IMG/VR virus record: IMGVR_UViG_3300014499_000196
Location: 1 to 21,332 of that record
Strand: one strand, 5' to 3'
Source of the DNA: a virus
DNA length: 21,332 bases
Positions 876 through 7,817 of this stretch are shown here, piece after piece. Under the pieces are notes generated by a model. That model worked only from the letters and a program-made list of their open reading frames with translations. It made no database searches and was not told where the DNA came from. The translations under genes were made by a program, and so were the position numbers. How positions within the stretch are numbered: position 1 is the stretch's first letter; each line of letters opens with the position of its first letter.

Positions 876-1101
876 GGGACACTTCCCGCCCGATCTGCGC
901 TATGTCGTACGCGAACTGCGAGAAGCATGCGGGACATACACGCAGTTCGGTGCGGTTCATTACCGGCTGACCGTTCGCAATGGCGGGCTTCTCGAACGAC
1001 ACGATCACGTAATGCTTAGAGTAATGGCCCGGTGTCACTTCGCAATACACATCGATTGATGACGTGCGAACGTTGACCTTGATGTACTCGGTAAGTTTCA
1101 T
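868..1101 (-). CDS. Small hypothetical protein with one CxxC
   Basis: This 77-aa protein is not recognised. The N-terminal half looks like beta strands, alternating hydrophobic and polar residues (KLTEYIKVNVRTSSIDVYCEV). A single CPAC motif lies near residue 57, with one more cysteine near residue 20. Two or three cysteines are not enough for a standard zinc ribbon. The ATG overlaps the polymerase TGA as ATGA, and the TAA overlaps the nuclease start, so it is translationally coupled on both sides. It is probably an accessory of the replication operon, inferred only from position. Confidence 0.75.
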   Translation of the reverse strand: MKLTEYIKVNVRTSSIDVYCEVTPGHYSKHYVIVSFEKPAIANGQPVMNRTELRVCPACFSQFAYDIAQIGREVSLA

Positions 1102-3068
1102 ACTGCCTCTTCAAAGAAGTCATCGTCATGTATCTTGTCGCCCCACCTGTGTAACAGATCGACAGACACGACAACCGGAACAACGAGTGTCATAGCGTTG
1201 CGCATCACTGCGGTAAGTTCATCGAGCGCTGCTTCATTGTGCCGAAGCCAAGCCTCGGGAACCTCGAACACCAACTCGTCGTGAACGGCGAGCAGCATGC
1301 GGAACGGGTAATGCGTATCGAGCAAGAACTGTCTGATCTTTAGCTGGGCGACCTTTAATAGATCAGCAGCGCTGCCCTGAATGCGGGAGTTGACTGCTTG
1401 CCTCTCCGCCATCGATGACAACATTGGATCGGGCAGCTTCGCATCGGGCAGTCTGCGCTTACGGCCCAGGATCGTTGTCACGAAGCCGTATTCACCGACC
1501 ATCACCTTCGTGTCATTGACGTACTTCTTGATCTTCGGGAACGTGTCGAACCACCGCTTGATCAGCGCCCGCGCATCATCGACAGTGATAATGTCTGCCG
1601 CCGTGCGCGCCTGCGCGTTGATCGTGTCAGCAAGCAGTTGCGGCCCCATGCCGTACAAGATGCCGAAGTTGATCGTCTTTGCGCGCACGCGCAGCGGATG
1701 ATCCTTGTCAGCTTTGAGTTCGGCGAGCGTGATCTGCGTCGGGAACATCAACAAACAGGTTGCGGTGTGAATGTCCTCGCCCGATGCGAACGCTGCGATC
1801 AGCTTTTCATCACCGGAGAAGTGCGCAAGCCAGCGCAGTTCTATCTGCCCGTAATCCATCGTAACGAGAACGTTGCCCTTCGATGGAATGAACGCGCGTC
1901 TGATCAGCGGCCCGATTGCTGCTTTCGGTAGCTGTTGCATGTTGGGACGCATACACGCCCATCTGCCGGTGCGCGTACCGCACGTTTTGTTATTCGTATG
2001 AATGCGCCCGTCAACAACATGCAGCGGGAGTTCTTGCACGAACATCTTATCGAGCGTTGCGTACTTGCGATACTCGATGAAGTTCTCGATGACGAGTTCG
2101 CGCCCGACCTGCCGCGCCTGTTCAACATCGTACTTGATAAGCCGGTGCAGCACTTTCTTGTCGAGTGCGTTACCATTGATGCGCGGCAACCGCAAGCCGT
2201 CGAAGAGCGCTGCTGCTACTTGGCTTGGACTATCGAGATTGACCGGACCGATAACGGCTTGAACCTTCGCCCGCGCCGCTGCACGTTTACTTTGGACTTC
2301 CGGCTTCATCACGGTATCGTAATAGAAGCCGTCCCACGCGATGCCGTACTGTTCCATCTCGTATGCGATCTGTATGTTTGGTATTTCAACTTCGTCGTAC
2401 AGCTTCTTCAGTACCGACAACTGCGCGAATTGCTTCTGTTGGAACTCATAGACCAACAGCGTCGTTTCACAATCCTTACCGAGATACGTCTGTGCCATAC
2501 CCAACGGCCACACGTTGAAGTGACCGTCTTGCTTGATCTTCCACCCGTCAATTGCTAACCATGTTTCCGCAATATCGACTAACTTGTGCGATTCATTCTC
2601 GTTCAGCAGGTGCATCGCAATCATCGTGTCGTCGGTAATGCCGTTGGTGTCAACGCCGTACGTGTTGTGCATGTGATGCTGATCGAACTTAACATTGTGA
2701 CCGATCTTCGAGATCGACTCATCTTCAAACACATCGCCCAGGTGTTCACGTATCTCCGCTGCCGTGAAGTTGTACATCGCATACGCCATGTTCGTTGGAA
2801 TGATAAACACGCGAATCATGCCGGTCGCGATGCGCACAGCAATGCCGATGCACACCGCGTAATCGGCCCAATCGAGTCCGGTCGTTTCGAGATCGAACAC
2901 GAATTGCTTGCGCTCCTTGATAATCCGTGCGCACTCTTGTAAGCCCGCGATGCTTTGCACGAACGTGAAGTTCTTCGGAACTTGCACCGTCCGTTCGCGC
3001 ACCTTCAGATCGCGCAGCACCTTCTTATCGCCCTTCGGCTTCGGAAGATACGGAAACAGTTCCATCAT
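1098..3068 (-). CDS. Family A DNA polymerase with 3'-5' exonuclease
   Basis: The 656-aa product is a replicative phage polymerase of the PolA/T7 family. The exonuclease domain has all three motifs: FDLETTGL (D59, E61), NVKFD (D129) and Y195-xxx-D199. Polymerase motif 1 is TGR (367-369) followed by PNMQQLP; motif A is DYGQIELR (D405, steric-gate E410); motif B runs R460, K464, F468, Y472; motif C is VHDELVFE (H596, D597, E598). All catalytic residues are present, so it should be an active proofreading polymerase. There is no 5'-3' exonuclease domain, as expected for phage enzymes. Oddities are Gly in place of the usual Ser of motif A, and Phe468 (E. coli F762 position), which predicts poor use of dideoxynucleotides. 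The ATG overlaps the stop of the upstream 43-aa gene as ATGA; a second ATG follows at once. Confidence 0.97.
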   Translation of the reverse strand: MMELFPYLPKPKGDKKVLRDLKVRERTVQVPKNFTFVQSIAGLQECARIIKERKQFVFDLETTGLDWADYAVCIGIAVRIATGMIRVFIIPTNMAYAMYNFTAAEIREHLGDVFEDESISKIGHNVKFDQHHMHNTYGVDTNGITDDTMIAMHLLNENESHKLVDIAETWLAIDGWKIKQDGHFNVWPLGMAQTYLGKDCETTLLVYEFQQKQFAQLSVLKKLYDEVEIPNIQIAYEMEQYGIAWDGFYYDTVMKPEVQSKRAAARAKVQAVIGPVNLDSPSQVAAALFDGLRLPRINGNALDKKVLHRLIKYDVEQARQVGRELVIENFIEYRKYATLDKMFVQELPLHVVDGRIHTNNKTCGTRTGRWACMRPNMQQLPKAAIGPLIRRAFIPSKGNVLVTMDYGQIELRWLAHFSGDEKLIAAFASGEDIHTATCLLMFPTQITLAELKADKDHPLRVRAKTINFGILYGMGPQLLADTINAQARTAADIITVDDARALIKRWFDTFPKIKKYVNDTKVMVGEYGFVTTILGRKRRLPDAKLPDPMLSSMAERQAVNSRIQGSAADLLKVAQLKIRQFLLDTHYPFRMLLAVHDELVFEVPEAWLRHNEAALDELTAVMRNAMTLVVPVVVSVDLLHRWGDKIHDDDFFEEAV

Positions 3069-3196
3069 TTGCGATTACGCACCCGCGCGCGAAGCTGCCG
3101 CCGCACCCGTTCGCACCGACGACAGACGAACTCGCGCGCCTTGATCATCATCGGGCAGTCATAACACGGGTGCGGTGTTCCGTTGACGTGTGTCAA
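3065..3196 (-). CDS. 43-aa zinc-knuckle protein, TTG start
   Basis: This short gene fills what would otherwise be a 124-bp gap between the SSB and polymerase genes. It reads 43 aa with CYDC at residues 11-14 and CRRC at 25-28, a CxxC-x10-CxxC zinc-knuckle pattern, followed by a strongly basic tail (many Arg). Its TGA overlaps the polymerase ATG as ATGA, and the only available start, TTG, overlaps the SSB stop as TTGA. Both junctions copy the coupling style of the operon, which is the main reason to believe the frame. A role in nucleic acid binding is inferred from the cysteines, the basic charge and the location. There is no clear ribosome binding site, so translation probably relies on coupling. 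Confidence 0.62.
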   Translation of the reverse strand: MTHVNGTPHPCYDCPMMIKAREFVCRRCERVRRQLRARVRNRK

Positions 3197-3852
3197 AACG
3201 GTGTCTTAGCTGAACCGTTCCCGGCACCGTTGCCAGCAGGCACCGCAGTCACATTCGCGGCATCGGTAAACGCCTGCGCGCGGTTGATCAGCACGCCTTC
3301 TTCGAGAATGACAATCGTTTCTTCCATATCCGGTACTTCGAGCGCCGCTTCTTTCTCGTCAAGCGGTCGATTGAACTTCGGATCGGCAACGATGTTCCAG
3401 AAGTACGTTGTATTCAGATCGTCGCCTTTGCGCACAATCTTGAAATCGAAGTCGGTCATGTGCGATCCCTCGGGTAAGTTCTCGATCTGATTCACAACTT
3501 GTTGGAAGTGATCGCGACCATATACGATGACTTGCACACGCGCCGGGTTCTCGTCACCGCGAACACGCACCGGAATGTACGTCTTGGGCGAACGCGGTGC
3601 TTCTGCCATGCACAGCGGACACGTCGAACGATCTTCAACCTGCACGTCGTTCTCCGTCGAGATCGCCGCTGCGCAACGCGTCGACTTCAAGCCTTTCTTG
3701 AAGTCGGCGTGGATGAACAGTTGAACCCATTCGTGTTCACTCTGCAACACACGCACTTGTTTTGTTTCTTTGTCCTTCATCTTGAAGGGCGTGTAACCCA
3801 TGCCGGTGTTTTCTTCAAAGACGCGCTGCGCCGCTAAGTATCCGCGTGCCAT
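3193..3852 (-). CDS. gp32-like ssDNA-binding protein
   Basis: The 219-aa product resembles T4 gp32-type single-stranded DNA-binding proteins. H48, C60, C78 and C81 give an H-C-C-CxxC order like the zinc ligands of gp32. The stretch around residues 90-152 (TYIPVRVRGDEN..., FDFKIVRKGDDLNTTYFWN) looks like the OB-fold core. The C-terminus is a flexible Gly/Asn linker ending in TPF, reminiscent of the protein-recruiting tip of bacterial SSBs (IPF). I chose the ATG at 3850-3852: AGGAAG stands nine bases upstream and the start lies one base after the primase stop. A TTG seven codons earlier would overlap the primase gene and has no better support. It should coat the lagging strand for the neighbouring helicase, primase and polymerase. 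Confidence 0.82.
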   Translation of the reverse strand: MARGYLAAQRVFEENTGMGYTPFKMKDKETKQVRVLQSEHEWVQLFIHADFKKGLKSTRCAAAISTENDVQVEDRSTCPLCMAEAPRSPKTYIPVRVRGDENPARVQVIVYGRDHFQQVVNQIENLPEGSHMTDFDFKIVRKGDDLNTTYFWNIVADPKFNRPLDEKEAALEVPDMEETIVILEEGVLINRAQAFTDAANVTAVPAGNGAGNGSAKTPF

Positions 3853-3853
3853 G

Positions 3854-4777
3854 TTAAGCTGCTTCCTGTTCAATGAATCGAGCGAGTATGATCACTTGCT
3901 CGAAGGTGAGTTTATTCGGATCGTGCGTGTCGGGCGGATATGGCGCTGCCATCACCCGCACGCGTGCAAGAAGTCGTTTGGTAATCTCCGCTTGCGCTTC
4001 TCGGCCCGCATCGTCGTTGTCTAACATCAACACGACGCGATGCGGTTCACGGCGGCACAGCACGTCGATCTGCCGGTTGTGCATGTACTTGCCGCCCAGC
4101 GCAACGGCGTGATGCCGGGTGAAGTGACCCAGGCGAAAGCACTGATCGAGAAACATCGCATCGAACTCGCCTTCGACCGGCCACACGAATGAGTGTTGCT
4201 TGACGAACTGCAAGCCGTACAGCGTCGAGTTGGGATCGCTGCCGTCGTCGAACTTGTAATACTTGGAATTGGGCGACCGCGACTTGATTGCGACGAGTGT
4301 GCCGTTCCCCGCGAACCACGGGAAGGTGATCATGTTGGTCGCCTTGTCGTATCCGACTCCGAAGCGCTGGGCCGTCTCTTCGATCACCCCCCGGCTGTAG
4401 ATGTACGGGTGACGCCAACGCAGCGGTGCGAGGCGGGCTTCCTGCGGCAGCTTGGGGATCGGCGGAGGCTTTGGGCGGGGCGGATCGTTTGCCACCGCCC
4501 GCGCCCACGCGCGACACGTCATCACACTCTTCGTATGTGACCAACCGGTGAACGCTTGCACCAACGTCTCGAAGCTGCCGCGCTGCTCGCACCCGAAACA
4601 GTGCCAAACCCCCGGCTTGTTATCGATGTTGACGTACAACGATGGCTTCTTATGCGTATTGAAGCAGCACCGGCAAACGGCTTCGCTTGGGCCAATCTTC
4701 ATATCGATCCCGATCTCACGCAAGCCGAGTTCGACCGATGCCGGTGTGAACTGCGGAACCGAAACAGTCGGTCGCAC
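3854..4777 (-). CDS. DnaG/T7-type DNA primase (zinc finger plus TOPRIM)
   Basis: The 307-aa product is a compact bacterial-type primase. Cysteines 35, 37/38, 60 and 63 form the N-terminal zinc-binding domain that reads the template. A proline-rich linker (about 98-111) follows. The TOPRIM fold has VEGEFDA (E202, D206) and LMLDNDDAG (D253, D255, D256), the metal-binding acidic residues. It lacks a C-terminal helicase-interaction domain and is much shorter than E. coli DnaG (about 580 aa), closer to the primase half of T7 gp4. Here the helicase is encoded separately just upstream. The start is GTG at 4775-4777, sharing one base with the helicase TAG (TAGTG); no strong ribosome site is seen, which suggests coupling. 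Confidence 0.93.
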   Translation of the reverse strand: MRPTVSVPQFTPASVELGLREIGIDMKIGPSEAVCRCCFNTHKKPSLYVNIDNKPGVWHCFGCEQRGSFETLVQAFTGWSHTKSVMTCRAWARAVANDPPRPKPPPIPKLPQEARLAPLRWRHPYIYSRGVIEETAQRFGVGYDKATNMITFPWFAGNGTLVAIKSRSPNSKYYKFDDGSDPNSTLYGLQFVKQHSFVWPVEGEFDAMFLDQCFRLGHFTRHHAVALGGKYMHNRQIDVLCRREPHRVVLMLDNDDAGREAQAEITKRLLARVRVMAAPYPPDTHDPNKLTFEQVIILARFIEQEAA

Positions 4778-6108
4778 TAGAACGGCAACCGATCAAGCTG
4801 CGATGTGTCCGCTTGCGGGATGATCGACACATCACGTTCGGACGGATCGAGCGAAGCCTGTTCAAGCTGAATATCCCAAAGCATACCGTGATCAATGTCT
4901 TGACCGAACGAAATGAAACGCGGTGCGCGACCGTTGCGGTTCTTACGCAGCGCAAGAAACGTACGCCCGTGCGTTTGTTTAATGGCAATCGCCTTGTTCG
5001 CGTACTGTTCGACCGCGCCCGACTCTGCAAGATGTGACAGATCGGGAATCAATTCATCGATCACGTACGCTTTCTTTGACTTTCGCTGCGACTTCACATC
5101 GGATTCACGGTTCGCTTGATGCGCGAGACGAATCGGAATGTTCGTATCCGTCGCAATCGTTTTCAGTTCTTCCATCGTGTTGATCAAGCGCTTGCGCGGA
5201 TCGCGATCATCCTTCATTGGTTCGAGCAACATCAAGCCGTCGATAACGAATATGTCAGGCTTATCGGACTTTGCATAACGTGCAATGTCTCCCGTTGTGA
5301 AACGACCGCCGCGCCCAGCAGCTTCGTAATACTGAATCGGGATTAGGTGCTGCGTTGCGTCCTCGAACTCGGCCTTTCGTGCGATGAACGCATTGTACTC
5401 CGCATCATCCATCTTGCCCGAGAACAACGCGTTCGATGACACATGCACCGTCATCGTATCGTAACGAATCTGATTCTCCCGTAACGTCATCTCCGGTGAC
5501 ACGTAGCAAACGACTGCACCTGACTGCTGGGCGGCAATGGCCCCGCGTATTAACATCAACGACTTGCCTTCACCGGGCCGACCGAACCATATCTCAATCT
5601 CGCCCGGTTGCGTGCCGAACGTTACCTCGTCAAGCAGATCGAAGCCGGTTGGTATGCCTGTCGTTATCTTCGCCAGTTCATTGCGCCACGTGATGCTGTC
5701 AGCGGGATACACACCGGACTTTAGGCTGTGCCGCATCTGCTGCACCGCCGTCATCTGTTTGATACGCACGGAGAGATCATACATCTTCGCAGCGGCGTCA
5801 CGTGGGTTCACCGCGCGCAGATCGAGTATGTCGGTCATCTCTGCATCAAATACGTGACCGGCGCACTCCTGTTCAACCTCTTCAAGCAACCACTCCGCAT
5901 TATGATCGCTGTTGATGAATGGGAACTCGGGAAACTGCAACATAAACGTCGCGACGTTTGGCAGCTTACGGAAGCGCTTTTGATAATCGGAGAGGAAACG
6001 CCACTCATCCGCGAAGTCGGCGAACAACTCGGCTTTCACACCGAAGTCGTCAGGTGAGAGTTCGTGCGCGCTAACAACGCGCGAGATCAGTTCCGAAACA
6101 TAGCTCAT
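4777..6108 (-). CDS. DnaB-type replicative helicase
   Basis: The 443-aa product is a RecA-fold hexameric helicase of the DnaB family. The N-terminal 120 residues are helical, with no clear catalytic motif. Walker A is GRPGEGKS (176-183), the catalytic glutamate is E206 in SPEM, Walker B is IFVIDG (D290), the sensing motif is HQANR (330-334), and the arginine-finger loop is RKNRNGRAP (388-396). All key residues are intact. The length agrees with DnaB (about 450-470 aa). The ATG overlaps the loader TGA as ATGA and the TAG overlaps the primase GTG, so loader, helicase and primase should be made in linked amounts. It unwinds the fork and is expected to be loaded at the origin by the initiator and loader encoded just upstream. 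Confidence 0.95.
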   Translation of the reverse strand: MSYVSELISRVVSAHELSPDDFGVKAELFADFADEWRFLSDYQKRFRKLPNVATFMLQFPEFPFINSDHNAEWLLEEVEQECAGHVFDAEMTDILDLRAVNPRDAAAKMYDLSVRIKQMTAVQQMRHSLKSGVYPADSITWRNELAKITTGIPTGFDLLDEVTFGTQPGEIEIWFGRPGEGKSLMLIRGAIAAQQSGAVVCYVSPEMTLRENQIRYDTMTVHVSSNALFSGKMDDAEYNAFIARKAEFEDATQHLIPIQYYEAAGRGGRFTTGDIARYAKSDKPDIFVIDGLMLLEPMKDDRDPRKRLINTMEELKTIATDTNIPIRLAHQANRESDVKSQRKSKKAYVIDELIPDLSHLAESGAVEQYANKAIAIKQTHGRTFLALRKNRNGRAPRFISFGQDIDHGMLWDIQLEQASLDPSERDVSIIPQADTSQLDRLPF

Positions 6109-6599
6109 AACTGCACCGTTCTACCGGAAATGATGCGTTCGTGCAGATCGTCGTGTGCATATAACATTGTGTAACCATCCTTTGATGTTGTAATGATAGT
6201 GACGCGCGATGAATCACACCGTTCTTGCACGCAACGCAGGAACAGCGGAATCGACGCATCGGGAATATCGTGAACATTCGTGAGAACTAACATGCCGGGA
6301 TCATACAGAGAACTCTTCAATGCCGACATATCACTGAAGCGCTGCGTATACAATTCATCGAACGCAGCGGGTGCGTTCACATAACCATACAGGCGTTCGG
6401 CAGCGCGATGGTTGTAGCGGAACACAATCGTCTTGACAAGCAGTGCAGCAGCAAGCTGTGTGCGCAACGTCGGAGAACCGTCATAAATCGTGATCAATCG
6501 CGTGCCTCGCGACAACCACGACAAGAACGCGCTTTGATCATCCATACGAAGTGCGCCAATGTGCATTGCAAGTTTATTCATGTTCGGCGTTGCGTACAA
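6105..6599 (-). CDS. DnaC-like helicase loader with degenerate ATPase motifs
   Basis: I read this as a DnaC/IstB-like AAA+ helicase loader that has lost its ATP-binding residues. DGSPTLRTQLAAAL (from about residue 40) lines up with the loader P-loop GPPGTGKTHLAAAL, with the invariant Lys changed to Arg and the glycines lost. MLVLTNVHD (103-111) lines up with Walker B LLVIDDLG, the two Asp replaced by Thr-Asn. ITTSKDG matches sensor 1 (ITTN), and ERIISG near the end matches the loader C-terminus. The position between initiator and DnaB fits. The start is uncertain: I give TTG at 6597-6599 (164 aa); ATG at 6581 is an alternative. A longer frame from ATG at 6752 would overlap the initiator by 134 bp and is not favoured. 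It could also be an unrelated fold. Confidence 0.6.
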   Translation of the reverse strand: MYATPNMNKLAMHIGALRMDDQSAFLSWLSRGTRLITIYDGSPTLRTQLAAALLVKTIVFRYNHRAAERLYGYVNAPAAFDELYTQRFSDMSALKSSLYDPGMLVLTNVHDIPDASIPLFLRCVQERCDSSRVTIITTSKDGYTMLYAHDDLHERIISGRTVQL

Positions 6600-6618
6600 C
6601 TCGGGAACTCGCGCTTCT

Positions 6619-7578
6619 CTAATCCGCCGTATGATCGACTGTGCGCGAAAACAAGAAGTCAAAGTCGGATTCGCTAATCCGTCCTTGCAGTTCGTGCCGC
6701 GACACGCCAAACATGACCATGTTGGTGAGAACTTGTCGTCTTGTAAACTCATCTTCTTGCGCGAGCGCTAACCGAATGTCAGATTCGGTTGTGTTCTTGC
6801 CACTCGCACCGCGTTGTATTTTGGGAATCTTGCTGCGATACTTCGCGCGGTACTTTGCATAATTCGTTACCTTGCCAGCGTTGAAGTCGGGATACTCGGT
6901 ACTGCGCAGCACCGTATCACGCAGCGCCCACGCTTCATCGATCAGTACGATCCATTCGTCAACCGTGTGCGAGTCATCGAACTTATGCGAGTCAGTGATC
7001 TCGACACCCGACAGCTTTAATATGTGAGCAGAGCAAGCGCGACGGGCCAAACTTGCGCCCTGCGGGGCTGCTGGGCGACGTGAGGGTGCATCTGCTATGT
7101 TGGTTGGTTTGCTAGTTTTGCTGGGCGACTCACCCCTGCCCGCGCCTGCGCGGTGCAGGTTCGTGATCTTCGCGGTCACGTCGTCCTCCGTCTGTTCTGA
7201 TAGTATGTTGAAACTATAACGAGGAGCGTCCCATGAATGGGAATTATCGTCCCACCCATGAGACGATTCGCTGTCCCATGAATGGGACGAATCCGGGTCG
7301 CCCAGCAAGTACGCACGCTGATCGGGCGCATGCGTGAGAACGCCCATCTGTAAAAGGGCGTCGAATGCTCGGTAGGCGGTCGATCTCGGAAGTGAACTTT
7401 CACGCAGTAACGTACGCTTCGATGCGAAGCAGTAACCGTCTCGGTTTGTTAGCAGCGCGATAGTTAAGAACATCATCACCGCGCCGAATGTTCCGTTCGC
7501 GCGCAGTACCGCAACTTGCGCCCGCGTTGCCTTACCGTACTGTTGTTGACGCGAAACTTCGCTTATGCTAGGATTCAT
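6619..7578 (-). CDS. Winged-helix replication initiator (lambda O-like in role)
   Basis: The 319-aa product (from the ATG at 7576-7578) has a winged-helix DNA-binding domain at about residues 33-92, including a recognition-helix-like LLRESSLPRSTAYRAFDALLQMG. An acidic Ser/His/Trp repeat (98-117: SHSWD, SHGWD, SHSWD) follows, then a disordered Ser/Pro/Ala-rich linker (135-180). The helical C-terminal part probably contacts the loader or helicase. This layout is typical of phage initiators that bind the origin within their own gene. The Ser/His/Trp repeat is encoded by palindromic DNA iterons, described separately. I rejected the longer frame from 7686 because it would run through the leader hairpin; GGTGG lies 11 bases before the chosen ATG. 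The gene is first in the replication operon. The initiator role is inferred from domain, iterons and gene order; no named family was confirmed. Confidence 0.8.
   Translation of the reverse strand: MNPSISEVSRQQQYGKATRAQVAVLRANGTFGAVMMFLTIALLTNRDGYCFASKRTLLRESSLPRSTAYRAFDALLQMGVLTHAPDQRAYLLGDPDSSHSWDSESSHGWDDNSHSWDAPRYSFNILSEQTEDDVTAKITNLHRAGAGRGESPSKTSKPTNIADAPSRRPAAPQGASLARRACSAHILKLSGVEITDSHKFDDSHTVDEWIVLIDEAWALRDTVLRSTEYPDFNAGKVTNYAKYRAKYRSKIPKIQRGASGKNTTESDIRLALAQEDEFTRRQVLTNMVMFGVSRHELQGRISESDFDFLFSRTVDHTAD
7229..7287. repeat. Three palindromic iterons, candidate replication origin
   Basis: TCCCATGAATGGGA occurs at 7229-7242 and again at 7274-7287, with a degenerate copy (TCCCACCCATGAGA) at 7250-7263. 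Each perfect copy is a dyad with 6-bp arms (TCCCAT/ATGGGA) and a 2-bp centre. Start-to-start spacings are 21 and 24 bp, about two helical turns. An AT-rich patch (about 7198-7220) lies beside the array. It sits inside the initiator gene, as lambda iterons sit inside gene O. Origin function is inferred. Confidence 0.6.
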
Positions 7579-7597: not shown

Positions 7598-7628
7598 AAA
7601 AGCATCGGCGTGAAGCCCCGGTGCTTTT
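7598..7628 (+). terminator. Terminator-like hairpin in the replication operon leader
   Basis: AAAAGCATCGG (7598-7608) pairs with CCGGTGCTTTT (7618-7628) over 11 positions with one T-G wobble, around a 9-nt loop, and is followed by TTTTTG. This is the form of a Rho-independent terminator read on the plus strand. On the minus strand it is weaker because the wobble becomes an A-C mismatch, although TTTTAA still follows. It lies 20 bp upstream of the initiator ATG, in the presumed leader of the replication mRNA, so it may also act there as an attenuator. Confidence 0.5.
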
Positions 7629-7765
7629 TGCTTTGCCGCAGGATGCGGTGCCGTCGATCATACATTCTTTTGACAGAGGCCCGCAAGAGCGTTTGTGTGC
7701 TTTTGTGTTAAGCTCTATCGCAGCAGAATCCATTACACCGCCAGCGATTGCTCGCTTCTGCAACA

Positions 7766-7817
7766 CCGTGATAAACGGTGATAAACCACAACAAACCGTG
7801 ATACACGGTGACAAAAG
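7766..7817. repeat. 10-bp tandem repeat array with two palindromic operator-like sites
   Basis: From 7768 the sequence reads as five units of ten bases: GTGATAAACG, GTGATAAACC, ACAACAAACC, GTGATACACG, GTGACAAAAG. The period equals one helical turn. Embedded in it are CCGTGATAAACGG (7766-7778) and CCGTGATACACGG (7796-7808). The second is a perfect dyad with 5-bp arms and the first has 4-bp arms; their starts are exactly 30 bp apart. The array sits just upstream of the first plus-strand gene, where a repressor or activator would control the divergent promoters. The binding protein is unknown. Confidence 0.6.

Follow-up and report, generated by a model that had tools for sequence, protein, structure and literature searches.

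A 60-bp segment in the linker-coding part of a replication-initiator-like gene is very probably the initiator-binding part of a phage replication origin, of the type known from lambda and SPP1. Its membership in this origin-in-initiator architecture is proposed from anatomy and comparison: repeated initiator-type sites lie inside the initiator gene, and an A+T-rich region adjoins them. From the same features we infer initiator binding, melting, helicase delivery, and origin function. A probable origin is thereby located in an uncultured phage without a close relative; the plan known from lambda and SPP1 appears here with another site sequence in an unfamiliar phage of bacteria. In the proposed mechanism, the initiator would bind three 18-bp dyads about two helical turns apart, probably as one dimer per dyad, and the complex so formed would open the A+T-rich patch beside them (7193–7222). 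The phage DnaB would be delivered at the opened patch, after which the phage primase and polymerase would take over. The peptides SHSWD, SHGWD, and SHSWD would be incidental, the result of translating the sites in that frame within a linker that tolerates them.

Three dyads and an A+T-rich patch in the initiator gene

The initiator-like gene (6619–7578, minus strand, ATG at 7578) encodes 319 residues comprising a winged helix, the dyad-holding linker, and a C-terminal part. Residues 37–79 match Pfam HTH_36 (E 4e-5; 23.7 bits, 1.3 bits short of the 25-bit gathering cut-off), and this match and an AF2 model place the winged-helix DNA-binding domain at 7342–7470 (minus strand). In the model (AlphaFold, three sequences) residues 1–97 form four helices with a core pLDDT of 80–87; its viral structure matches include replication initiators, a replisome organizer, and a lambda-O-like protein, none of them at E <0.001. 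The best PHROG matches are 270 (E 7e-4) and 428 (E 2e-3), both annotated “replication initiation protein”. As judged by these comparisons the product is a winged-helix protein nearest to replication-initiation families, with a weak family match. It is outside the lambda O family by sequence: the lambda-O model is absent among its Pfam matches, and PHROG 678 (“O-like”) is reached only at E 0.06. No close relative was found by protein search of IMG/VR or by tblastn of phage records. Two further SHxxD motifs, SHKFD and SHTVD, occur in the C-terminal part (~6955–7002) without DNA dyads, and the leader of the gene contains a hairpin (7604–7634) with T-runs on both strands, which is terminator- or attenuator-like (RNA fold z ~ −1.9).

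One dyad type, CGTCCCAT-NN-ATGGGACG, occurs three times just past the DNA-binding domain, ~290–350 bp inside the gene, with starts at 7227, 7248, and 7272 (21 and 24 bp apart). The sequence-only reading had described palindromic iterons in a winged-helix initiator gene, two perfect and one degenerate, and its exact 14-mers were recovered (TCCCATGAATGGGA at 7229–7242 and 7274–7287), as was the weaker copy (TCTCATGGGTGGGA, minus strand, 7250–7263), all unique in the window, i.e. the whole stretch of 21,332 nucleotides that was analyzed. When the half-site is extended to CGTCCCAT, the iteron nearest the A+T-rich patch (7227–7244, CGTCCCATGAATGGGAAT) has 2/16 mismatches, the middle iteron, which is that reading’s degenerate copy (7248–7265, CGTCCCACCCATGAGACG), 2/16, and the third (7272–7289, TGTCCCATGAATGGGACG) 1/16; in this form the middle copy fits about as well as the others.

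These three are the only sites with ≤3 mismatches in the window, the next best on the plus strand having 5; shuffled windows held a mean of 0.11 such sites, and none of 100 shuffles gave three. Repeated dyads (arms ≥5, within 80 bp) are confined to the in-gene pair and one at 7765/7795, and a repeated dyad with 6-bp arms arose in 0/300 Markov-simulated windows. Plain direct repetition of the copies is not significant (p = 0.34 at lags 18–30, p = 0.09 at lags 18–48) by a fixed-lag statistic ill-suited to the uneven site spacing of the window; the signal is carried by dyad symmetry, not by direct repetition. In IMG/VR the exact paired 14-mer was not found a second time. Paired TCCCATNNATGGGA is also found in unrelated bacterial repeats among the genome-scan hits as far as these were examined, so the motif on its own has no diagnostic value. 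Folding the array as RNA yields a strong hairpin (z −5.3), which is explained by the palindromic repeats and is not counted as evidence for an RNA element.

The candidate DNA unwinding element at 7193–7222 adjoins the array on its downstream side in the gene sense. It is 70% A+T, which puts it at the 99.9th percentile among 30-bp windows, and no stretch of the initiator gene is richer. Because many positions were scanned, we estimate its chance probability at ~0.05. An AT-rich patch next to the dyads had been claimed from the letters alone; it is present, and on the same side as at other loci. Across nine loci, several of them mutually related and so not nine independent cases, the best A+T window was higher downstream than upstream of the array in seven, equal on the two sides in two, and never lower. 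At four loci (L058, L060, L061, and L062) the A+T-rich patches downstream of the arrays contain pairs of TTAA-type words (e.g. TATTAACGACTCTTGTTTAACGCC), which are perhaps unwinding-element repeats. GC skew is uninformative for the origin, because in the window it tracks gene strand.

The replication operon and its relation to known origins

The initiator gene heads an operon in which a 215-residue product (6105–6752, minus strand) is followed, on the same strand, by a DnaB-type replicative helicase (4777–6108; Pfam DnaB_C E 1e-22, PHROG 19 E 8e-45), a DnaG-type primase (3854–4777; Toprim_2 E 8e-12, zinc ribbon E 1e-6, PHROG 47 E 7e-50), a weak match to a single-strand DNA-binding protein (3193–3873; PHROG 14578 E 5e-7), and a family A DNA polymerase, PolA (1098–3068; Pfam DNA_pol_A E 6e-92). 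Protein searches of IMG/VR gave no close relatives of DnaB or PolA; PolA matches from fecal records were discounted: L005, the one contig among them examined from end to end, has genes that look bacterial. The earlier description of a loader gene followed by a DnaB gene is borne out for DnaB, whereas “loader” is a label by position only, because the 6105–6752 product has no Pfam, PHROG, NCBIfam, meaningful PDB, or phage match (tblastn of phage records included). Its single-sequence fold model has a pLDDT of 35. Visual inspection shows a cluster of cysteines near its N-terminus and a stretch resembling a degenerate P-loop, so that it is perhaps a diverged DnaC/DnaI-type protein.

In lambda, gene O contains 19-bp imperfect inverted repeats to which the O protein, a dimer, binds, and the minimal unwinding unit comprises two iterons and the adjacent A+T-rich region (PMC7466680). 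Lambda ori resembles the window in having imperfect inverted-repeat iterons, of the TCCC...GGGA type, in the initiator gene with an A+T-rich tract adjoining (PMC7466680). In contrast, the window has another iteron sequence and spacer, three sites rather than four, no O-family match, its own DnaB, and no recognizable P. The central points of the lambda-like reading are supported: the winged-helix initiator gene contains palindromic iterons, with an A+T-rich element beside them.

SPP1 offers a parallel for the helicase. Its genes 38-39-40 encode initiator, loader, and DnaB helicase (PMC6316719, PMC5499656), and oriL lies inside gene 38 (PMC6316719); oriL is described as direct repeats plus an A+T-rich region, there is a second origin, oriR, and the host DnaG and polymerases are used (PMC6316719, PMC5499656). 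SPP1 and the window are alike in placing origin-type repeats and an A+T-rich region in the initiator gene with a phage-encoded DnaB-type helicase downstream, in the window within the initiator operon itself. They differ in that the window has palindromic sites, a loader by position only, and its own primase and PolA. The sequence-only reading had set the DnaB/primase/polymerase set apart from lambda; the phage does encode all three, but SPP1 already provides a precedent for a DnaB gene of the phage’s own downstream of an initiator gene that contains an origin (PMC6316719, PMC5499656). Francisella phage KIRK has a predicted origin with iterons inside fhv_0043, likened to lambda by its authors (PMC7924643); it is similar in placing a predicted iteron origin within a phage replication gene, and differs in its protein family (Phg_2220_C) and in being a prediction only.

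Arrays in other initiator genes

Linker arrays after the winged helix were found in Sinorhizobium, Nostoc, Bradyrhizobium, and Mesorhizobium phages, two IMG/VR phages, and two proteobacterial genomes. They have other site sequences, are mostly spaced 20–24 bp apart, and several have their copies in different reading frames. When IMG/VR was scanned for two CCCATNNATGGG sites, 20 loci were obtained, among which L009 (PHROG 428 E 2e-12) and L023 (PHROG 1032 E 6e-10) have the sites inside initiator-family genes, after the winged helix, and L011 has them within an unassigned gene, where SHPWD is encoded three times; these three are biased, because they were found through the motif. Relatives of the L009 protein were then sought by protein similarity alone, with DNA repeats ignored, and in each of the initiators found in this way, those of phi2LM21, vB_MseS-P1, ppBdUSDA122-1, and Nsp-JY10, the winged helix is followed by an array that exceeds what synonymous recoding gives. 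The array is of the TGCCGGTATACCGGCA type at 20/21/24 bp in phi2LM21 (recoding p 0.005), is spaced at 21/24 bp in Nsp-JY10 (p 0.005), is of the TGCCC-N6-GGGCA type at 20/24 bp in ppBdUSDA122-1 (p 0.005), and consists of AGGGTGACACC at 36/23/22 bp in vB_MseS-P1 (p 0.015).

Phi2LM21 and its relatives (PHROG 428/270 type) resemble the window in their 20–24-bp-spaced array right after the winged helix and in the A+T-rich patch downstream. They differ in having TGCCG/TGCCC-type iterons and no DnaB listed within 4-kb flanks, and tblastn with the window initiator finds none of the phi2LM21-type initiators. The initiator was predicted in the phi2LM21 paper; neither “iteron” nor “origin of replication” turned up when its text was searched.

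Copies in different frames are present in L023 (PIHG and PSMG), phi2LM21, and ppBdUSDA122-1. In an initiator-like gene of a bacterial genome (L075, 1555–1690), at least four perfect TTGCCC-N5-GGGCAA sites follow a 23-bp grid and between them occupy all three frames. Two of eight gammaproteobacterial PHROG-428 matches reached p 0.003 (L071 and L075), several of the eight being short fragments, so within this sample, which is small and in part fragmentary, the layout is common, not universal. A search for the same dyads in related initiator genes had been proposed as a check: arrays recur in the same linker, with other site sequences.

There is about an even chance that winged-helix initiator genes share one layout across many phages and prophages that are not related, in which the linker past the DNA-binding domain serves as the origin, with iterons commonly in 20–24-bp steps and then an A+T-rich patch. 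That site sequences diverge along with the protein, reading frame disregarded, belongs to this general layout and is an equally balanced proposition. If it is general, origins and binding specificities could be read directly from the initiator genes of uncultured phages. Because the layout turns up in other phages too, a simple rule by which phage origins might be found can be put to the test.

DNA constraint and alternative readings

The three dyads encode SHSWD, SHGWD, and SHSWD in one reading frame. When the sites were recoded with phage codon usage, a given copy was palindromic in ~2% of trials and both perfect copies in 0.03%, and when the gene’s own synonymous codons were permuted, the total symmetry of the three sites was reached with p = 2e-4. 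Since synonymous recoding so rarely recreates the symmetry, the DNA is constrained, not only the SHSWD peptide. The window copies share a frame, which makes a reading-frame test unusable on the window alone, and the frame argument therefore rests on the other phages. The earlier suggestion that DNA constraint explains the Ser/His/Trp repeat agrees with the recoding result and with the arrays of other initiator genes, often in different frames.

The converse, that the repeat is a protein feature (an SHxWD linear motif of the linker) and that the peptide, or a tandem duplication in the recent past, accounts for the DNA repeats, is highly improbable. The shared frame of the three copies would suit it, as would a middle copy that keeps SHGWD despite different DNA, the further SHxxD motifs of the C-terminal part, and the lack of significance of direct repetition on its own. 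However, the peptide does not require symmetry, as synonymous recoding indicates, and the rare Ser codon TCC is used; counterparts elsewhere encode unrelated peptides in different frames. The window offers a case of a repeated peptide as a by-product of DNA sites, and warns against calling such repeats protein motifs.

Two further explanations place the origin elsewhere or give the dyads another function. The dyads might form an intragenic operator, at which the initiator or a repressor controls transcription of the replication operon and not the start of replication; dyads <80 bp apart are typical of operators, and dyads of the CCCAT-N2-ATGGG type are intergenic near XRE-regulator genes in four phage contigs (L010, L017, L024, and L028). 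But the sites lie ~290–350 bp into the gene, past the DNA-binding domain, with the A+T-rich patch adjoining, and the same layout recurs in other initiator genes, while autoregulation by an origin-bound initiator is compatible with an origin role; a purely regulatory function is accordingly improbable. Slightly more doubtful still is an origin in the intergenic array at 7765–7815, with the in-gene dyads as auxiliary sites or leftovers. This array holds the window’s only other repeated dyad, has a 10-bp period, lies between divergent gene blocks, and is adjoined by an equally A+T-rich stretch. Against this, such a location is typical of operators of divergent promoters, and its half-site differs from that of the in-gene dyads, so another protein probably binds there. 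An origin at the in-gene dyads remains the preferred reading.

The second dyad pair consists of ACCGTGATAAACGGT and ACCGTGATACACGGT (ACCGT-N5-ACGGT type), 30 bp apart (RNA fold z −4.3 for 7765–7815); it is likely an operator pair, and possibly a further origin element. The intergenic dyads around XRE-type genes in L010, L017, L024, and L028 are mostly ACCCAT-N2-ATGGGT and are probable repressor operators.
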